From a virus, in the IMG/VR virus record IMGVR_UViG_3300046780_000208, positions 1 to 21,464 of that record: a DNA stretch of 21,464 bases; one strand, 5' to 3'. The translations under genes and the position numbers were made by a program. Of the stretch, positions 13,112-21,064 are shown in pieces (the stretch's first letter is position 1; every line of letters begins with the position of its first letter). The notes below the pieces were generated by a model. The model saw only the letters and a program-made list of their open reading frames with translations, was not told where the DNA came from and made no database searches.

Positions 13112-13485
13112 TTTGCGCCTCTTTCCCATTGTTGCCATCGTTCAATTATTTGCTTACCCTTTTTCCCATTCCACGCTCGCGCCAAATGATGATACAAAAT
13201 ACGCGGGTTGTCTTTGCCGTGCATGGCCGTTCGTCCTTCAATGGGCTTTAGTCCCAAATCATGCAGTTGGCACAATCCATTTTTGTGAAATACGCAAGTT
13301 CCTTTCGTTCCTTTTGAGCCGCGCGATTTGATAACGGCAAACTCCAAAGATGGGTCGTTATCGTTATCTATGGTTAATTTGGACATGTATCCCGCATCCA
13401 TGATCGCCGCAATTTCTTTGGGTGTTCCCATGCAGGGCGTGCGTCGGCACATGGATTGACAATCTGAACATTGACAACTATTCAT
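13108..13485 (-). CDS. Cysteine-rich metal-binding protein (YkgJ-like)
   Basis: From the ATG at 13485 (TAATG overlap with the primase stop) the product has 125 residues. The N-terminus, MNSCQCSDCQSMCRRTPC, has Cys at 4, 6, 9, 13 and 18. Further on come GTCVFHKNGLCQLHDLGLKP and an HGKD motif. This Cys pattern followed by C-x7-C-x2-H-x4-KP resembles YkgJ-type zinc- or iron-cluster-binding proteins. The basic C-terminal helix (NGKKGKQIIERWQQWER) could contact nucleic acid. It may act with the primase-polymerase, but that is inferred only from coupling. Confidence 0.7.
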   Translation of the reverse strand: MNSCQCSDCQSMCRRTPCMGTPKEIAAIMDAGYMSKLTIDNDNDPSLEFAVIKSRGSKGTKGTCVFHKNGLCQLHDLGLKPIEGRTAMHGKDNPRILYHHLARAWNGKKGKQIIERWQQWERGAK

Positions 13486-14402
13486 TATCCCCATATCCCC
13501 ACCTCCTTAGCCAATTGCGACACAGCAACCGACTCATAAATATTATGTTGACGCGCATATAAGTTAATTACATCCATCGGTTTCATGCCGCATACTTGGC
13601 AGCCGAACAACTGCCGGCGGGCATCGATCCAACCAGACGGACGCGTATCTTGATGGAACGGACAGACTACTGAGTACCATCGGCCATCAGCAGAAGTGCG
13701 GGTAAGATTTGAAAAGAAGTTCTCAATTCGCACAGTGTTCTTAACCTTTGAAATCAAATCCATGCCGGTGCTGTTGACTACTGAGTAAGCATCGTACACA
13801 CCCTGCGTCTGAATAGTGATGTGAGACGTATTCGTTTGCACATACTTACAAGTCGCCGCTACGCGAGGAAATAAATCAAGTGGCAAAATAGATTCCACGC
13901 TAGGAACACGCACAAGTGCAAACTCGTTTTCTGGTTCGTACATCGCACCACTGGGATGAACGCAGCCTGGACCAACTACAAATCTACCTTGCGCCTGCAC
14001 ATCGATACCGCCGCTGTTGACAATTCGTTTGCCATTGTCGGCTTTGCTTTCTGTTACGACATACACGTGCATACCATGGCGTGTGCGAACACGAAAAGAA
14101 TTATTAACCACATTCTGAACGTCGCCATCCTGCATACTTCCCCACAGTTGCCAAATGTTGTAATAATCCATTGTGTCAAAATCAATGATGACTAAATTCT
14201 GCCAGCCCGCAATAACGGCATAATTCAGCCAACCAGAGCCAAGCCATTTTAATAAGTCGTACTCAGTAGGTAACTGGGTGTTATATTGTCCCCAACGACC
14301 ACCGATCAATGAGGCTTCGGGCTCCTTGCCTCGGTGCCTGAGAGGAATAATGGCTATACCCATTTTCAAAAAGTTTAGTGCGTTTGTAAGTTTGTCTGAC
14401 AT
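13485..14402 (-). CDS. Primase-polymerase with C-terminal CHC2-like zinc ribbon
   Basis: The 305-residue protein starts with a prim-pol (bifunctional primase/polymerase) domain at about 1-180. It has ALNFLKMGIAIIPLRHRGKE, the catalytic DFD at 74-76 (NLVIIDFDTMDY), and the segment VNSGGIDVQAQGRFVVGPG with a following HPSG. A C-terminal zinc ribbon has C247, H250, C268 and C271 (CPFH and CQVC), as in DnaG CHC2 domains, but at the opposite end. It should make primers at the replication start, together with the VirE-type helicase upstream. It contains three TACT(C/G)AGTA copies (13668, 13779, 14260). The candidate origin lies directly before it. Confidence 0.85.
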   Translation of the reverse strand: MSDKLTNALNFLKMGIAIIPLRHRGKEPEASLIGGRWGQYNTQLPTEYDLLKWLGSGWLNYAVIAGWQNLVIIDFDTMDYYNIWQLWGSMQDGDVQNVVNNSFRVRTRHGMHVYVVTESKADNGKRIVNSGGIDVQAQGRFVVGPGCVHPSGAMYEPENEFALVRVPSVESILPLDLFPRVAATCKYVQTNTSHITIQTQGVYDAYSVVNSTGMDLISKVKNTVRIENFFSNLTRTSADGRWYSVVCPFHQDTRPSGWIDARRQLFGCQVCGMKPMDVINLYARQHNIYESVAVSQLAKEVGIWG

Positions 14403-14603
14403 ATTTACCTATTTTCTTTTTTTTCAAAAAAATCTATCTGTTACACTTCCCTTGGAGCACTCTTCTATAATTAACTTTGCCTACAATCAGGCGTAACAGA
14501 TGTAACAGATATTTCTTAAGGAGTTTGAAAAAGTTTTAAAATATTTTTTCTAATTAAAGGGAATTATGTGTTACATCTGTTACGTGTTACACCTATCTGT
14601 TAC
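14403..14603. other. Candidate replication origin: AT-rich gap with ATCTGTTAC iterons
   Basis: ATCTGTTAC occurs five times: forward at 14436-14444, 14575-14583 and 14595-14603, and reverse (GTAACAGAT) at 14493-14501 and 14502-14510. Two more GTGTTAC half copies lie near 14568 and 14585. Between the two groups, 14521-14560 is almost all A/T. Iterons next to an easily melted stretch, between a primase-polymerase gene and helicase/methyltransferase genes, fit an origin or a repressor region. The last codons of the methyltransferase run through the rightmost repeats. A poor -10-like TATAGA lies near 14465 on the minus strand. Confidence 0.5.
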
Positions 14604-15212
14604 GCTCCATTGCTCAGCCATTGCACGAGCGATACCAGGAAATGTTTTTGACCTGATACCCCCCCCGTGTTTAGCGTCTGTAAAATAACGTTTCTTTTGG
14701 CGGGGAGTGTTGTCGATATAAATTGGATCGGGTCTATTGGTTGCAGTTCTTTCTCCAAATAATTCATTTTGCAATCTGTATTCCAAAAGCGGTAAATTCT
14801 TTAACCATATCCATGTAGTTTTCAGATGATCATCACCAAAATAATAAGGTTGTATCTCTTGTGAATATTTGGCAATTGTTGGCGAAGCACATCCTTTCGG
14901 ATTTTCAAGACAAATCTTTTCAATGGGAGCTGTCCATAATTTAGCAAAGAAATTCAACGCCTCCAATCGTTTTTCAATTCGTCCAAGTTGATTCCAAACA
15001 TGCGTACCGGCGTAACTCAAATATGTGCAAGGCGGATGGGCAATCATCAAATCCCATCCATCATTAAGCACTGTCAAGACATCGGCTTTTATATGCCATT
15101 CAGGAAAACCGCCGCTGCAATCTTGAATATCGCAGCTGTATGCCTCATGACCCAATGTACGAAACGCTTTGGTGATTTCCTGGCTTTCTTCACAACCAAT
15201 TAAAATCTTCAT
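14580..15212 (-). CDS. DNA cytosine-C5 methyltransferase-like protein, short form
   Basis: The 210-residue protein starts MKILIGCEESQEITKAFRTL, a SAM-binding first strand and helix, followed by GHEAYSCDIQDCSGG. The catalytic Pro-Cys is HPPC at 59-62 (C62), and CLENPKG (E103, N104) matches the family's ENV-type motif. The C-terminal target-recognition domain of full-size enzymes is not apparent. Such short phage forms are common, and their target is unknown. It could protect phage DNA or mark origin DNA. Whether it targets the repeated TACTSAGTA motif cannot be told from sequence. Start from ATG at 15212, with a weak SD. Confidence 0.82.
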   Translation of the reverse strand: MKILIGCEESQEITKAFRTLGHEAYSCDIQDCSGGFPEWHIKADVLTVLNDGWDLMIAHPPCTYLSYAGTHVWNQLGRIEKRLEALNFFAKLWTAPIEKICLENPKGCASPTIAKYSQEIQPYYFGDDHLKTTWIWLKNLPLLEYRLQNELFGERTATNRPDPIYIDNTPRQKKRYFTDAKHGGGIRSKTFPGIARAMAEQWSVTDRCNT

Positions 15213-15221
15213 GGTAGAAAA

Positions 15222-16694
15222 TCAATTCCAAAATAGCCGCGCGTTGGAGAGCCACCAGTACGCTAGCTTTGTAAGCGCCCGGGCAAGTTTCCGCATGTCC
15301 AACTCAGAACCAACGCGGAGATTGCCTTTATTCGGGTCTTTGAGTGCATCCATAATCTCTAAAGACGAAAGCCACCAATTAGAATTTTGCGGATCAATCT
15401 TGAACCACTTTTTGATAGTTTCTTCCACGGGATCAAGAATTCGATACTCTTCATTGATAATGTCAATGCGTTGCCGTTCTTGGTCTGTTGTCGGCTGCCA
15501 ACTCTCGCCACTGAGATAGAGCATCATGGCTTGCGCCCAAACCTGATTTACATCAATCTTTGTGTATGCCCAATCAATACTGAGTATCTTTTCAACGTAA
15601 TAACGCCGGTCTCCTGTTGGCATGAATCCCTCTTCGTTGTTGATCGTGCCAATGAAACTTGCCAACGCTGGTTGAATGGTATCTACCCTGTCATACTTGC
15701 GGCGAAATGTCACAGTGCGTTGTGTTAGAAATCCCTTCATGGATTCCCAATCGCTTTTACGCATTGACGAACCTAGCTCTTTCACTTCCCAAATCCAATT
15801 CTCAGCCAGGCGGCGCTTATTATCTTCATTACGCGTATCTAACTCTTCCTCAAGAAAATATGCGGGCATTGGTGAGGCAATCCAGCGGACAAAATGACTC
15901 TTGCCAATTCCCTTCGGACCATCCATAACCAACATACGGTTTTGTTCGGCTGCCATTGCCTTAGCACAGGTACCAATCAGCCAGCGGCGCAAGAACACTG
16001 GAAACATGCCGTACTCGCTGTGAAAGTAATTTGCTAAATCCGCAATTGGATCACCGCCCTCGAACGATAGCCCGCGCAAATAATCTTGAATTGGATGATA
16101 AGCATTTTTATACGCCGTGGATGTAATCACGTCTTGCACCGCATCCATGCCTAATACTTTTAGATCACGCATTTCTCTCCGAATGTCTGCATAATCTCCG
16201 TTGGTCATGGTGCGCCCGTTGTCCTCGACGCCTCGGCATAAATTAAGTCTGATAGAGTGCCCACGGCTTTGAATGAGTTGGAGGATCTCATAACTCTTGA
16301 TATGCTTTGGCGCTTTGGTGTGTGCTTGATTTTGTGCAGCCCGATGAGCGTTGCCGCGCTGCACAATTGCGCGCTCAATGGCTCCCCTTAGTAATTGATC
16401 GTAGATACTTAGTGCATTGCGATACGCTGCATCAATATCAGGACTGCCAATCAATTCAATCCAGATGCGTTCCCACGGTTGCGAAGTGGGTAAACCGTAA
16501 TTTGTAATCTCACGAGATATGCTAAGTGCGTGTGCTAACCGTTCCATGCCATCAATAAACAAGCTGGAGTTTTCGTCAATAAACGCATCTGTCAAAATTT
16601 GTGCGTCTGGATCAACGATTCCTTGCAGAATCAAATCAGCATGAAGAGTCGACATCTTTACCTGGGGCGAGGCATACGCAGCATTGGGCATCAC
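15222..16694 (-). CDS. VirE-type superfamily 3 replicative helicase
   Basis: The 490-residue protein has a C-terminal VirE/D5-like ATPase with Walker A GPKGIGKS (259-266) and acidic NWIWEVKEL (299-307). It also has sensor-like SFIGTINNEEGF (346-357) and GDRRYYVE (361-368). The preceding part (about 140-240), with LQLIQSRGHSIRLNLCRGVE and YHPIQDYLRGL, is typical of such phage helicases. It should unwind DNA at the origin in concert with the prim-pol encoded at 13485-14402. The start is GTG at 16694 or ATG three bases later. One TACTGAGTA copy (15578) encodes ILS and extends to a perfect 11-base palindrome apart from its centre. Confidence 0.85.
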   Translation of the reverse strand: MMPNAAYASPQVKMSTLHADLILQGIVDPDAQILTDAFIDENSSLFIDGMERLAHALSISREITNYGLPTSQPWERIWIELIGSPDIDAAYRNALSIYDQLLRGAIERAIVQRGNAHRAAQNQAHTKAPKHIKSYEILQLIQSRGHSIRLNLCRGVEDNGRTMTNGDYADIRREMRDLKVLGMDAVQDVITSTAYKNAYHPIQDYLRGLSFEGGDPIADLANYFHSEYGMFPVFLRRWLIGTCAKAMAAEQNRMLVMDGPKGIGKSHFVRWIASPMPAYFLEEELDTRNEDNKRRLAENWIWEVKELGSSMRKSDWESMKGFLTQRTVTFRRKYDRVDTIQPALASFIGTINNEEGFMPTGDRRYYVEKILSIDWAYTKIDVNQVWAQAMMLYLSGESWQPTTDQERQRIDIINEEYRILDPVEETIKKWFKIDPQNSNWWLSSLEIMDALKDPNKGNLRVGSELDMRKLARALTKLAYWWLSNARLFWN

Positions 16695-16696
16695 GA

Positions 16697-17320
16697 TTAT
16701 TTTTTCCCGATTGCGAGGTTGTAGGCTTTTTGCACTTGGTCAAATAAAACAGGGTCGCCGCCTGCGTCCGGATGGTGAACTTTTACGAGTTGTAAATATG
16801 CTCCTCGGATTTCTTGACTAATTGCAGTTTGCGGAACGTGCAATACTTCCCACCATTGTTTTGTGTCTGGGTCTGGCAATGCCGCATAACCCGCGAACGC
16901 TTGATCCAGTGAACCTACTCCCCATCGTTCTTGTCCTCGCAGTGCTTCGATATGCTTGACGATAGCCCAAAGGTTATCTTCGATGGAAGTCCATTTATCA
17001 CACGCAAAAACTAAATCGCGTTTTTTCCAAGCGAAATAAACTGCTACCCCGCAATCTTCAGGTTGTCTTTGACCTGAGTAAGGCAACCCGTTTGACTTTA
17101 CTTTCAGGTTGGAGGAAATAATAAGATTGCTTCCGCCCAATCTCCGAATTTCTTGCTCCAATTCTCGAGCACCTTCAGAGATTGTATGCTTCCGACCAGG
17201 TTGATAACCGGCATAAGAACTAACTCGCCCTTGTGTTCCAAAGCGGGCACGTGCATGATTTTGGGTTCGTGGTTGACCAACAGGCCATGACAACGGGTAA
17301 TTGGTAATATCATCGTTCAT
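16697..17320 (-). CDS. J-domain protein 1 (C-terminal DnaJ domain)
   Basis: Residues about 155-205 of 207 carry a J domain: WWEVLHVPQTAISQEIRGAY, then LVKVHHPDAGGD with the HPD triad at 183-185. J domains stimulate Hsp70 ATPase, so the protein may recruit host DnaK. The N-terminal 150 residues, with RARFGTQGRVSSYAGYQPGR and CGVAVYFAWKKRDLVFACDK, are not recognised. They may bind a replication protein, as the gene is followed after 2 bp by the helicase gene. GAGG stands before the ATG. A lambda P or DnaJ-like role in helicase loading or remodelling is inferred. Confidence 0.82.
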   Translation of the reverse strand: MNDDITNYPLSWPVGQPRTQNHARARFGTQGRVSSYAGYQPGRKHTISEGARELEQEIRRLGGSNLIISSNLKVKSNGLPYSGQRQPEDCGVAVYFAWKKRDLVFACDKWTSIEDNLWAIVKHIEALRGQERWGVGSLDQAFAGYAALPDPDTKQWWEVLHVPQTAISQEIRGAYLQLVKVHHPDAGGDPVLFDQVQKAYNLAIGKK

Positions 17321-17328
17321 AATCGCCT

Positions 17329-17886
17329 CTATGCTGTCAACAAGTTCTTAACAGTGGATTCCAATTCTTTGACTTTCTCGGCAGTGACACCTTGCCCACC
17401 AGATGCCTTAGCCAAGCGATTCAGAAACTTCTGACCTGCGCCACCTTCGGGACCAACGTAAATTGTGTCGATCTTCGCTTTGTAAGTTTTAGCAACTCGC
17501 AAACATTCTTGCTCGTCGTCAGGTTCACCATCGCTAATGACAATAAAACGAATGCCTTTGAGATCAGCCATCTTTGCAAACTTCAACGCCTTGGCTAGAT
17601 CGGTACCGCCGCCAAAATTGAAAGGGATTCCATTGGGGCAGAATTGAACGTCATCGCTAAATGACAGTAGTGCTAGTTTGCCTGGAAGACTTGCCTGCAA
17701 TTTCTTGAGTTCCTCACAAGCTACGTCATAGCGCGATTGATTATTGCGTGAATCGTTTGCGCCCATGCTGCCACTAGTGTCGACTATGAGTATTACATCC
17801 GCATTGATAAAGCTCTCGGCAACACTTTTGCCTTGCGCTTGAGCGACGGCACCTAATGAGCCTTGAATAATTGCACCTTGATTCAT
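17329..17886 (-). CDS. VWA-domain protein with intact MIDAS
   Basis: The ATG at 17886 overlaps the upstream stop as ATGA and has GGGGG before it, giving 185 residues. An N-terminal Gly/Ala/Gln segment leads to the metal-ion site DTSGSMG (D36, S38, S40), followed by LALLSFSDDVQFC, GGGTDLAKALKFAK and IRFIVISDGEPDDE. This is a complete von Willebrand factor A fold, binding a partner through a divalent metal. No signal peptide is present, so it works in the cytoplasm. No AAA+ MoxR-type partner is visible. The flanking J-domain and zinc proteins suggest a joint complex. Confidence 0.85.
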   Translation of the reverse strand: MNQGAIIQGSLGAVAQAQGKSVAESFINADVILIVDTSGSMGANDSRNNQSRYDVACEELKKLQASLPGKLALLSFSDDVQFCPNGIPFNFGGGTDLAKALKFAKMADLKGIRFIVISDGEPDDEQECLRVAKTYKAKIDTIYVGPEGGAGQKFLNRLAKASGGQGVTAEKVKELESTVKNLLTA

Positions 17887-18371
17887 TTTGACCCCCATAG
17901 ATCGAGTCTGACTTGTATGATTTCGCAAGTCTCGCAGTTTTCAGGACGATAGCCATATTTTGAAAGATGTTCTAAGTGCCCGAATAAGTTATCTTCAATT
18001 TCAAAAGCTTTTTCAAGCAATTTCTTTTCAGGTCGCTTTTCGCAAGTCATAACATGGTCAAAAATTTCAATCAGATTATTTTTATCTTCGTGTACGTGCC
18101 CGCAATAAGCGCACATAGTTTTGTTGTTTATACATAAAGCGCAATACTGAGTACCGTTCCCGTCCTGTGCTAAATATCTGTTTTTATGTCCGCACGGCAT
18201 GGTAATGTCGTAGGTTTCGAGCCACCATTTAAGGCTCTCATTTTTCTCTTTAGTGACTTGTTCAATGATATTAACAACCTCTGGAATGTCACTGGCAGAT
18301 TGTCCGGGTTTCCATTCTGGTTCAGTGTTGAAATATTCAATAATCTTTTTTGCCGCTTCTTCAGGTATCAT
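17883..18371 (-). CDS. Zinc-binding protein with several Cys/His knuckles
   Basis: The 162-residue product has a helical N-terminus (PEEAAKKIIEYFNTEPEW) and a Cys/His-rich middle: PCGH (60-62), CALC (77-80) and CAYCGH (87-92). A further CETC pair stands near the end (146-149). Two or three zinc sites are likely. TACTGAGTA (18145-18153) encodes TQY next to one knuckle. GGAG precedes the ATG, and the stop overlaps the VWA start. No family is recognised; adaptor or nucleic-acid binding are the usual roles for such folds. Confidence 0.72.
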   Translation of the reverse strand: MIPEEAAKKIIEYFNTEPEWKPGQSASDIPEVVNIIEQVTKEKNESLKWWLETYDITMPCGHKNRYLAQDGNGTQYCALCINNKTMCAYCGHVHEDKNNLIEIFDHVMTCEKRPEKKLLEKAFEIEDNLFGHLEHLSKYGYRPENCETCEIIQVRLDLWGSK

Positions 18372-18380
18372 AGTTTTCTC

Positions 18381-19202
18381 CTAGCACCAAACTTCGGTAA
18401 ATTTATCTTCGCCAGCTTTCCAGCTCACAACCAGCACGCGGCCAAATGAATCTTTTATATCTTCCCATGCAAAAATCTTTTGCACTTGAAGCACGCCTAT
18501 TGTTTCAACGCCTTCACACATAATCAAACCGCAGCGCAATGGAGAACGATAACCATTAGCTACTGAGTACTGGTTACTTGATTTCGGTGTATTTCTCAAC
18601 GTCGCTTCGAGTGCCAATCCTGCATCATAGCGATCACGGCTTTTTGTCAAAACTTCATACGCATGTTGGATAGCTAAAAATTGTTCATGTGCGTTTGGTT
18701 CACGACAAGCATCAGGATGCCATTGACGCGCCATTCTTCGATAGCCTGATTTGAGTTCGTCCTCTGTTGCGCTTTGCCTAATGCCAAGTACTGCATATAG
18801 CGTTGGCTGCTCGTCCGGTTGCGCGGGTGCGTCAAACCAAGTGCGGAGAACTGTTTCAGGAAATAATACAGACCAAGAATTATTTACATAACCGTATGCT
18901 GAGTATTCTCCGTTGCCACGATCTTTAGTTGCGCCTATATAGCGACAATCAATAATTTGCTGTTTGACTACCGGCTTGCTATTCGCAACTACTGGCAATG
19001 GCACAATCTCGTTGAAAATATCCAAGCAAATATCTTGTAACTTCTTCCCATGTTGAGGAGACACCAACCAGTATTTTTTATCTGGCACATATCGCCGCTC
19101 GTTTGCCGGAATCCGCCGTTTGAGTTCATACAAAAATTGTTGATCGTAGGGCGTAACAATCGCAATTGCGCCATTTTCAGAGAGTAATTTGCATTGAGTC
19201 AT
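18381..19202 (-). CDS. J-domain protein 2 with N-terminal HARP-like segment
   Basis: The product has 273 residues. Residues 10-65, with AIAIVTPYDQQFLYELKRRI and DKKYWLVSPQHGKKLQD, resemble the small HARP-like domain found beside some DNA-remodelling proteins. A J domain follows at about 133-187 (LYAVLGIRQSATEDELKSGY, ARQWHPDACRE) with HPD at 162-164. The C-terminus (about 225-273), with VGVLQVQKIF-like and GRVLVVSWKAGE segments, is unassigned. It differs from J-domain protein 1 in domain order, so the two are not recent duplicates. TACTGAGTA (18561) encodes YSV. It probably recruits host Hsp70 to the replication proteins. Confidence 0.82.
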   Translation of the reverse strand: MTQCKLLSENGAIAIVTPYDQQFLYELKRRIPANERRYVPDKKYWLVSPQHGKKLQDICLDIFNEIVPLPVVANSKPVVKQQIIDCRYIGATKDRGNGEYSAYGYVNNSWSVLFPETVLRTWFDAPAQPDEQPTLYAVLGIRQSATEDELKSGYRRMARQWHPDACREPNAHEQFLAIQHAYEVLTKSRDRYDAGLALEATLRNTPKSSNQYSVANGYRSPLRCGLIMCEGVETIGVLQVQKIFAWEDIKDSFGRVLVVSWKAGEDKFTEVWC

Positions 19203-19252
19203 AGTGATAACGCCTCACATAAATTCTTCGCCATACGTGCGATTTGCTTCAT
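19199..19252 (-). CDS. Candidate 17-residue coupled micro-frame
   Basis: An ATG at 19252 overlaps the upstream stop as ATGA, and its own stop overlaps the next start as ATGA. The frame, MKQIARMAKNLCEALSL, therefore exactly fills the gap. It is amphipathic and basic. It may be a real micro-peptide or simply a way to carry ribosomes to the J-domain gene. Confidence 0.35.
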   Translation of the reverse strand: MKQIARMAKNLCEALSL

Positions 19253-19527
19253 TGCATTTCCTTTCGATCACTCAGGCACCATAGCAATTCAGCAGGTGCC
19301 ATCTCTTGAATTCGCTTGTAACGAGGATGTTTATAAATACCAAGCAACTTCCTTGTTTCAATGTTCTTAGGTGTCCAAGAGCCATTTGATTTTGCAATGC
19401 GATTTAAAGTTCCGGCTTTCACGCCAGGGTAATCTTCTTTTGCTATTGTTCGGTACGATCTGCCTTTTACGTTTTCTCGTAGAATGCGTTTTGATAATTT
19501 ATAGGCTGTAGTAGTCAATTCGTGCAT
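19249..19527 (-). CDS. Small HTH-like DNA-binding protein
   Basis: The 92-residue protein has a helix-turn-helix-like core at about 22-65: RSYRTIAKEDYPGVKAGTLN, RIAKSNGSWTPKNIETRKLL, then GI. Similar small proteins appear in phages and probably bind DNA. A perfect palindrome GTCACG-TTTT-CGTGAC lies 21 bp before its start, so self-regulation is plausible but not shown. AGGA precedes the ATG at some distance. Confidence 0.7.
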   Translation of the reverse strand: MHELTTTAYKLSKRILRENVKGRSYRTIAKEDYPGVKAGTLNRIAKSNGSWTPKNIETRKLLGIYKHPRYKRIQEMAPAELLWCLSDRKEMQ

Positions 19528-19603: not shown

Positions 19604-20140
19604 TTAGCCCAATTCATAGTCTTGCAGGGATGCAATCCATTGGACATCGTTTTCGTCTAATTCAAACCATTCATATTCAATGCGCTTGGTCGAAAACTTT
19701 TGATGTAAATCTTTTTCAACTTTTCGGTAATCATGACAAGCAAAACAATGAATGACTTCAATAAGAACCGGAAACTGTCTTTTCAAACCACCTAAACGGT
19801 TTTCCACTTTTTTAGATATTCCTATTTTGTGGTAGCCATTTCCAGAGCGCATAAGATAAACATATCCAAACAGTTGATTTGCTTCATATAACTGAGCCTG
19901 TCTTTCTTTCTCCAAATCTCTTTCTGTTTTGACTATTTCTGTCTTAGTCTTCTTTTCTAAAATAATTGAAGATGGCTTTTCAATTGGCTTTTTTATTTCG
20001 TCTTGTTTTTGTTTGATCTGTTCTGCTTCGTTTTCTTTCCATATTTTGAACGAACAAGAGGAGCAAATTCCGTTATCTCGTGAACTTGCCCAAAAATCTT
20101 TTTTACACACTGAACACGTTTCTACTCTTGGATATTGCAT
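19604..20140 (-). CDS. GIY-YIG nuclease (T5orf172-like) with N-terminal zinc knuckle
   Basis: The ATG at 20140 has GGAG 7 bases upstream and gives 178 residues. The N-terminus has a four-Cys knuckle (C9, C12, C26, C29), followed by a charged coiled-coil linker (about 35-88). The C-terminal catalytic domain (91-170) shows GYVYLMRSGNGYHKIGISK, NRLGGLKRQFP, and EKDLHQKF with the expected Glu (E142), then YEWFELDENDVQWI. These are the core residues of T5orf172-type GIY-YIG proteins. It may be a free-standing homing-type or repair nuclease. An in-frame GTG at 20272 exists but gives an unlikely leader. Confidence 0.85.
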   Translation of the reverse strand: MQYPRVETCSVCKKDFWASSRDNGICSSCSFKIWKENEAEQIKQKQDEIKKPIEKPSSIILEKKTKTEIVKTERDLEKERQAQLYEANQLFGYVYLMRSGNGYHKIGISKKVENRLGGLKRQFPVLIEVIHCFACHDYRKVEKDLHQKFSTKRIEYEWFELDENDVQWIASLQDYELG

Positions 20141-20281
20141 AGTGATCTCCAAATAAATTACTAGATAATTGCTTTGCCAGCAGTAATCATTTGTATTATC
20201 TGAAAAAGTCTCACCGCTTACCTGCTGGCACATAAGGGTGGATTGTGACAGGCACGGAGCCTGATAACACACTACTGAGTA
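20141..20281. promoter_or_regulatory. Non-coding gap between RecT-like and GIY-YIG genes
   Basis: It contains the only copy of TACTGAGTA outside a gene (20273-20281), touching the RecT-like stop. It also has an inverted repeat CTGATA/TATCAG that encloses that copy, and a CAGGC/GCCTG hairpin (about 20248-20262) without a T run. No convincing promoter is seen. It may separate early recombination from replication transcription. Confidence 0.35.
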
Positions 20282-21064
20282 TCAGTCTCTGTTCGTGGCT
20301 TCTACCATTGCCTGTTGCGTGAGCAGCTTGCGTCGCACTTCCTCAATTTGTCCATTGGTAGGAATTGCACCGTTGTTCACGTTCATAATTGCCTCAGCGC
20401 CGAAATCATTGATAAGTTGTTGCAATGGGTCAACACTGGGCACGCTAGTCGCAACCGCATCAATCACGTCCCCGCCCTCAGTAAGTGCCACGCCATACAT
20501 TTCGGGTGCTTTCATGAGCGTTGTCATTCCAGCAGTAACATCAGGCGCAACCACATCAGCAGCAAAACCCACGGCGCGCCATAAGCACATATTTTCGGGA
20601 TACTTTGACCAACCCGAATCAGGCTTGACCAAACCGGCGCGGGTTGCATCTTCCATTGTGAATCGGGCGGTGTGTTGAAAGTTCTTGCCGGTGCGCTTCA
20701 TCGTGCATTGATAGCCAGAAAATTTTCCGGTTTTATCTTCGAGCCGCACAATGTCGATATCGCTGATAATAGGACTACTGAGTAGTAATGCCATCGCGCC
20801 GCGTGGTGCAACACCAGGCTTGCCTTGAATCACTTGAATAAAATCAAATGAGGCAGTCATACTGAAGCCGCACTCAAAACCTTTGAGCATGATCGCCTCA
20901 GCCTGTTCGATGGAGGTCACGCCGAATAAATGACTCTTGTACATGGCGGGAGCCATGACTTCAATCATCTTCCAAATTGCGGGTGTGAGCTCACGAGTTG
21001 CAGCAGTCACTGCTAATTCAGTTGTAATGGGTTCAATTGCGGTTTGTTTAGTTTTCGTTGCCAT
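20282..21064 (-). CDS. RecT-family single-strand annealing protein
   Basis: The 260-residue product has the RecT core: MLKGFECGFSMTASFDFIQV, IQGKPGVAPRGAMALLLSS, GYQCTMKRTGKNFQHTARFT and MEDATRAGLVKPDSGWSKYP. The closing NMCLWRAVGFAADVVAPDVT matches the family's conserved end. It should bind single strands and anneal them during phage recombination. The partner exonuclease would be expected upstream (right of the window). It has one TACTGAGTA copy (20776-20784) inside the core, encoding LLS-type residues, and another directly after the stop. The gene is 2 bp after a small upstream gene. Confidence 0.82.
   Translation of the reverse strand: MATKTKQTAIEPITTELAVTAATRELTPAIWKMIEVMAPAMYKSHLFGVTSIEQAEAIMLKGFECGFSMTASFDFIQVIQGKPGVAPRGAMALLLSSPIISDIDIVRLEDKTGKFSGYQCTMKRTGKNFQHTARFTMEDATRAGLVKPDSGWSKYPENMCLWRAVGFAADVVAPDVTAGMTTLMKAPEMYGVALTEGGDVIDAVATSVPSVDPLQQLINDFGAEAIMNVNNGAIPTNGQIEEVRRKLLTQQAMVEATNRD

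Follow-up and report, generated by a model that had tools for sequence, protein, structure and literature searches.

A J-domain protein and a von Willebrand factor A protein form a conserved gene pair in phage recombination and replication operons and may engage host DnaK

The window analyzed here is a whole virus record of 21,464 bases that carries terminase, portal, scaffold and head genes, together with a minus-strand early operon. In the direction of transcription, the stretch 16697-19202 of this operon encodes HARPJ, Zn, VWA and JC, and the gene of a VapE/VirE helicase follows (Table 1). The tight coupling that an earlier, sequence-only reading had attributed to these genes is indeed present: the gap between HARPJ and Zn is 9 bp, the stop codon of Zn and the start codon of VWA overlap as ATGA, and the gaps between VWA and JC and between JC and the helicase gene are 8 and 2 bp, respectively. 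Because of the ATGA overlap with Zn, the ATG at 17886 was taken as the start of VWA and not the mechanically assigned TTG at 17928. Promoter or terminator signals above shuffled expectation were not found in the region.

Table 1. Positions of the genes, domains and motifs in the window
Feature	Coordinates	Strand	Basis
HARPJ, 273-aa J-domain protein: HARP-like N-domain, middle J domain, beta-rich C-terminal part	18381..19202	-	Pfam DnaJ, AlphaFold2
HARPJ N-terminal domain, aa 1-65, HARP-like	19008..19202	-	sub-threshold PF07443 hits in relatives
HARPJ aa 79-122, three strands and a helix, first half of possible OB-like core	18837..18968	-	model topology, weak Foldseek
HARPJ J domain, aa 135-192; HPD codons 18711-18719	18627..18800	-	Pfam DnaJ
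HARPJ aa 225-272, C-terminal beta region conserved in the alignment, second half of possible OB-like core by model topology	18387..18530	-	
Zn, 162-aa Cys/His protein, CGHxxRY...GTQYCxxC knuckle	17883..18371	-	motif search
VWA, 185-aa von Willebrand factor A protein, intact MIDAS	17329..17886	-	Pfam VWA_2, alignment
MIDAS motif 1 (DTSGS) of VWA	17767..17781	-	alignment
JC, 207-aa J-domain protein, J domain C-terminal	16697..17320	-	phrog_9210
JC J domain, aa 156-201; HPD codons 16766-16774	16718..16855	-	Pfam DnaJ
VapE/VirE-type AAA+ helicase	15222..16694	-	PF05272, 116 bits
Prim-Pol primase-polymerase with CHC2 zinc ribbon	13485..14402	-	downstream of pair in most relatives
RecT-like single-strand annealing protein, upstream of HARPJ	20282..21064	-	phrog_4171 and phrog_561

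Three further genes lie nearby. The protein encoded at 19604-20272 begins with a zinc-ribbon-like segment, contains a MUG113/T5orf172 domain (GIY-YIG-like) and shows a weak match to the PADLOC model PDC-S57. A 92-aa protein is encoded at 19249-19527; its relatives lie directly upstream of HARPJ in contigs 34128_000004 and 05294_000850 and are placed elsewhere in other contigs. Between the helicase and Prim-Pol, at 14580-15212, lies the gene of a phrog_757 protein annotated as DNA methyltransferase, a relative of which adjoins Prim-Pol in contig L155.

Two J domains with an HPD motif had been recognized at the locus, and both are genuine: Pfam DnaJ (PF00226, cut-off 27.8 bits) scores 67 bits in HARPJ and 33 bits in JC, and the HPD codons were located in each. 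Their contexts differ as described before, the domain being in the middle of HARPJ and at the C-terminus of JC. In the structural models the J domain of HARPJ aligns with solved J domains with a Z of up to 11.7 and an rmsd of 1.1 over 70 residues, and JC does so with a Z of up to 9.1 over 64 residues. Against the full-length NCBIfam DnaJ model (cut-off 377.2 bits) HARPJ scores 63.1 bits and JC 21.7 bits, and neither qualifies as a canonical DnaJ/CbpA protein (class A/B). The HARPJ family is present in 87 contigs. The HPD motif is kept in 87 of 88 HARPJ proteins, the remaining one reading HSD, and its H and D are invariant across 51 aligned sequences.

The AlphaFold2 model of HARPJ (pLDDT 87, pTM 0.59) runs from the N-domain via three strands and a helix to the J domain and on to more strands, an order that fits a five-stranded OB fold split by the J domain. 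The OB folds of RMI1C-RMI2 are the only non-J family among the best 50 Foldseek matches of HARPJ, and these matches are weak (E 4e-3 to 1e-2, TM-score about 0.2-0.3); the fold-match lists of both HARPJ and JC consist mostly of J-domain matches, and the other parts are barely covered. A sequence and profile search of PDB and Pfam with the J-excised core of HARPJ gave nothing relevant. The split OB-like core is thus a possible lead only. The HARP-like segment of the sequence-only reading fared similarly: PF07443 has no match in the HARPJ of the window, and in several relatives it hits the N-domain at one and the same position below the cut-off (12-21 versus 25 bits; best E 2e-4), which lends the assignment weak support. 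Unlike the SMARCAL1/HepA-related proteins that carry HARP, HARPJ is devoid of an SNF2 helicase domain. Three HARPJ forms (L044, L046 and L159) have no HARP-like N-domain; the first strand of their beta-rich core forms the N-terminus. In the JC model, residues 47-133 show a helix-strand-strand-strand-helix order that resembles a dsRBD, and the only non-J fold match of this N-domain is a weak one to Dicer-2-R2D2 (probability 0.14).

The sole HARPJ with HSD is encoded at 7159-7980 of L175 (IMGVR_UViG_3300034128_000004). This phage is one of the three that also carry JC, in which the HPD is intact, and the chance expectation for the HSD protein to fall in a JC-carrying phage is about 3%. The HSD may be a sequencing error; JC may also provide the J function in this phage.

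The assignment of VWA as a MIDAS-type protein is well founded. Both VWA_2 (30.7 bits, cut-off 27) and VWA (25.6 bits, cut-off 23.8) of Pfam match above threshold, and the window protein has the full set of MIDAS residues (DxSxS, T, D), none of which varies among 62 aligned VWA proteins. The slot immediately upstream of VWA is highly variable and is occupied by many unrelated genes.

HARPJ and VWA constitute a conserved two-gene pair, the members of which are rarely found apart. The searches of viral contigs and genomes with VWA and HARPJ yielded 97 contigs, including the window, and 83 of these contain both genes. More specifically, VWA is found within 6 kb on the same strand in 70 of the 75 HARPJ loci whose 6-kb downstream flank is complete, and HARPJ is present in 59 of the 61 VWA loci with a complete upstream flank, counts that have to be read with the contigs being partly non-independent and with a HARPJ profile built from loci first found via VWA. 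Two of the five HARPJ loci that lack VWA match HARPJ in the J domain only. A search of Anaerolineaceae genomes with HARPJ only returned four new loci, and VWA was present in all three that were testable. In contigs 18079_000022 and 44712_001406 the two genes lie at opposite ends, which may reflect circular permutation. In metagenome 3300029822, L105 has HARPJ without VWA and the shorter L067 has VWA and Prim-Pol without HARPJ; these could be fragments of one population, or unrelated.

The spacing within the pair is not fixed. The two genes are at most 50 bp apart in 21 of 77 pairs, the median gap is 318 bp with varied genes in between, and in some loci the separation reaches about 5 kb and 10 genes. 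A comparison of distance matrices gave no signal specific to the pair: for 35 matched contigs the correlation between HARPJ and VWA was 0.53, versus 0.60-0.68 with the SSB-like and ERCC4 genes. In unmatched sets the correlation of HARPJ and VWA with VapE was 0.35-0.37, and that of VapE with Prim-Pol 0.65.

The two other genes of the cluster behave differently. JC belongs to phrog_9210, a family labelled 'DnaJ-like chaperonin' that is known from actinophages and others. The match (E 5e-51) spans the full length of JC, from residue 1 to 203 of 207, and the family was found in 89 phage records and 273 viral stretches. The neighbours of JC vary, none being constant across about 80 loci, and among the 80 loci kept, VWA and HARPJ of the window kind occur in only two phages. 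Unlike other members of phrog_9210, JC can stand beside the HARPJ-VWA pair, which it does in three phages only, the window included. A second J protein was found in few of 50 JC records, and for the present set the earlier remark that two J proteins in one phage are uncommon proved right (3 of 49 records). JC is best explained as a separate J protein, present beside the pair or in its place in a few phages; in L178 (see below) it may replace the pair. The Cys/His character of Zn is evident from its knuckle, CGHKNRY..GTQYCALC. A pattern of this kind (CGHxxxY...QYCxxC) occurs in 4 of 12,303 ORFs, from four phages, each directly upstream of VWA and overlapping it; a sequence search found no relatives of Zn in viral contigs or phages, and the motif search alone succeeded. 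Zn is best explained as an occasional accessory of VWA. The notion of a four-gene unit was rejected, as JC and Zn are missing from nearly all HARPJ-VWA loci. Independent occurrence of the four genes, which the sequence-only reading had named as evidence against a joint role, thus applies to JC and Zn, whereas HARPJ and VWA are rarely apart.

The pair is embedded in an operon for recombination and replication. Clustering of neighbouring genes revealed a recurrent order of SSB-like gene, ERCC4 nuclease, RecT-like or RecA-like AAA recombinase, PD-(D/E)XK nuclease and HARPJ, followed by variable genes, VWA, helicase, Prim-Pol and terminase, in which SSB-like and terminase are putative labels from our own reading of the sequences; Pfam gives no match for the first gene. 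The recombinase upstream of HARPJ is RecT-like in 45 loci and of the AAA_24 type in 18. Downstream of the pair the helicase is VapE in 39 loci and of another type (D5/SF3, RecA-like or other) in 37, the non-VapE types having been assigned by gene cluster, with a single Pfam check for each. In the divergent contigs L149 and L124 the pair is kept and RecT, VapE and Prim-Pol were not recognized nearby; in L149 an SSB gene lies directly upstream of HARPJ. The RecT, JC and VapE of L178 (IMGVR_UViG_3300005471_000030) are 69-78% identical to those of the window, and its helicase, at 78%, is the closest relative found for that of the window, while HARPJ and VWA are absent from the 41-kb record. The relatives of RecT, JC, VapE and Prim-Pol lie at 6663-13050 of L178, with a DNA methyltransferase gene between JC and the helicase. 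VapE was rejected as the specific partner of the pair, because the pair persists with other helicases and a changed recombinase; in addition, L178 has VapE without the pair. The proposal that the four-gene set would be dedicated to the VirE helicase and prim-pol is not supported, the pair retaining its position with D5/SF3, RecA-like and other helicases.

The carriers of the pair are tailed phages, some of them prophages of Chloroflexota (Anaerolineae), an assignment from which the host of the window itself is excepted. Matches in genomes came from Chloroflexota, namely Anaerolineae bins and the cultured Ornatilinea apprima, and single ones, possibly the result of mis-binning, from bins assigned to Saccharibacteria and Gammaproteobacteria. 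Oscillochloris has a divergent VWA alone. A host chromosomal system was considered and rejected: among 298 genomes of the Ornatilinea class, VWA was found in a single one, namely Ornatilinea itself. MW202444.1 (Manatee Spring) is the only annotated phage record with the pair, and among the titles and abstracts listed we found no description of a J-vWA pair in phages or prophages. Phage-encoded J-domain cochaperones as such are known; what would appear to be new is the pairing with a vWA protein.

A comparison with known systems suggests how the pair might act. The J protein Rki (057w) of enterobacteriophage RB43 relies on host DnaK, and its binding of DnaK was shown experimentally to stabilise sigma32 (PMC3486835). 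HARPJ is likewise a phage J-domain protein, for which we propose the same reliance on DnaK; unlike Rki, it contains HARP-like and beta-rich regions, is paired with VWA and lies among recombination/replication genes, and RB43 records were not among the tblastn matches listed for HARPJ or JC at E <= 1e-3. Host DnaJ, DnaK and GrpE act in the release of lambda P-DnaB and the monomerisation of P1 RepA (PMC4926192, PMC8215388). The action proposed here would similarly be an Hsp70 dismantling a replication complex, whereas the phages encode the J protein themselves and use VapE, D5 or RecA-like helicases. In the systems of MoxR AAA+ ATPases and vWA co-chaperones, a MIDAS vWA protein is combined with an ATP-driven chaperone activity (PMC7159879), a combination that we propose for the present pair as well. 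Here, in contrast, the partner is a J protein, so that the ATPase would be host DnaK; MoxR-like AAA_5 (PF07728) was found at E <= 1e-3 in none of 48 virus records, some of them fragments.

Distant counterparts are uncharacterised vWA proteins of Delftia, Pectobacterium and Xanthomonas plasmids, which are 26-42% identical to the phage VWA and have in common with it the region SDGEPDxE...ID.LYIGP. They adjoin other small plasmid genes, among which no J protein was recognized. These relatives (L273 5495-6959, L274 5270-6920 and L275 5141-6734) are encoded in a small operon, preceded by the gene of an 'LDFSDLTDDQLIELARxCC'-like protein and followed by that of a protein of about 145 aa; none of the three has a Pfam assignment.

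On this basis, HARPJ and VWA may constitute a phage co-chaperone pair that brings host DnaK to recombination and replication complexes, a reading that we find evenly balanced between acceptance and doubt. It draws on the observed pairing, the conserved HPD and MIDAS motifs, the operon setting, the independence of helicase type and the lack of a detected Hsp70 or MoxR. Host DnaK is the simplest partner for HARPJ, as the HPD is conserved, an Hsp70 above cut-off was found in none of 49 records and a MoxR-like ATPase is likewise not detected, and recombination/replication complexes are the likely client because of the operon setting. The dependence on host Hsp70 put forward by the sequence-only reading is thus kept as a natural, if conditional, interpretation of these features. 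HARPJ would stimulate host DnaK via its HPD motif, and its HARP-like N-domain and beta-rich core would aim it at DNA or at a complex bound to ssDNA. VWA would associate with HARPJ as an adaptor or client clamp via its metal-binding MIDAS. DnaK might then be brought to the annealing protein, the SSB, the nuclease or the loading of the helicase, and the complexes would be dismantled or reset, much as the lambda P-DnaB complex is by DnaJ/DnaK. It is a further and rather doubtful step to regard HARPJ, with its putative DNA-targeting scaffold, and the near-obligate MIDAS VWA as a new kind of phage co-chaperone that links a vWA protein to host Hsp70, and not to a MoxR ATPase, for the remodelling of these complexes.

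Several observations weigh against this mechanism: inheritance of the operon also predicts the co-occurrence of HARPJ and VWA, the distances of the two correlate no better with each other than with the SSB-like and ERCC4 genes, most pairs are more than 50 bp apart with varied genes in between, the OB-like core is seen in model topology and weak fold matches, and in L178 a very similar set of RecT, VapE and Prim-Pol does without the pair. HARPJ and VWA could accordingly be independent early proteins that are neighbours through inheritance of the module. Operon-level co-inheritance does account for much of the linkage, and both the large separation in some loci (about 5 kb and 10 genes at most) and the distant plasmid VWA relatives without a recognizable J partner are in line with independence. 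Nevertheless, the pair was retained despite the exchange of recombinase and helicase on either side, and in L124 and L149 even without a recognized RecT, VapE or Prim-Pol nearby, which makes independence distinctly improbable. A host takeover in the manner of Rki is also unlikely. HARPJ (and JC) would in that case redirect or titrate host DnaK, for instance with respect to the heat-shock response, VWA would tether or regulate, and the position in a replication operon would reflect early expression only. Rki does function as a phage J protein, with DnaK and sigma32 as its targets and not in the way of a generic cochaperone (PMC3486835), a phage Hsp70 was not found, and the absence of a constant neighbour of JC at about 80 loci fits a host-directed cargo gene. 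For a general decoy of DnaK, however, neither the conserved HARP-like N-domain and beta-rich core of HARPJ nor its constant recombination/replication setting would be expected.

The original suggestion, a single assembly or remodelling apparatus of all four genes for the VapE/VirE helicase and prim-pol, was derived from the gene order and tight coupling in the window, and gains from the recurrence of JC with the pair in two further phages and from the 39 loci with the pair upstream of a VapE helicase. The distribution of the genes already largely contradicts it: the pair is retained in 37 loci with another helicase type, the closest helicase (78% identical) is that of a phage without the pair, JC and Zn are missing in almost all relatives, and the distances of HARPJ and VWA correlate weakly with those of VapE (0.35-0.37, against 0.65 for VapE and Prim-Pol, in unmatched sets). 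We consider it very unlikely. Finally, the highly variable slot directly upstream of VWA could point to a device for anti-defence or superinfection in which JC and Zn are exchangeable cargo beside VWA. That is hardly credible, as the HARPJ-VWA pair is constant and not variable and the PADLOC models match none of HARPJ, VWA and JC; together, PADLOC and NCBIfam added no function.

Being small, and present in an apparent prophage of at least one cultured host, Ornatilinea apprima, the pair lends itself to direct tests of the co-chaperone reading. Should this reading hold, phages of a broad and little-explored group would have dedicated access to host Hsp70 for the recombination and replication of DNA, and a vWA protein would be a fixed partner in this phage Hsp70 route. 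The lambda paradigm, in which host DnaJ is borrowed, would then extend to phages that supply a J protein of their own, and the J-vWA pair would represent a counterpart of the MoxR-vWA machines.
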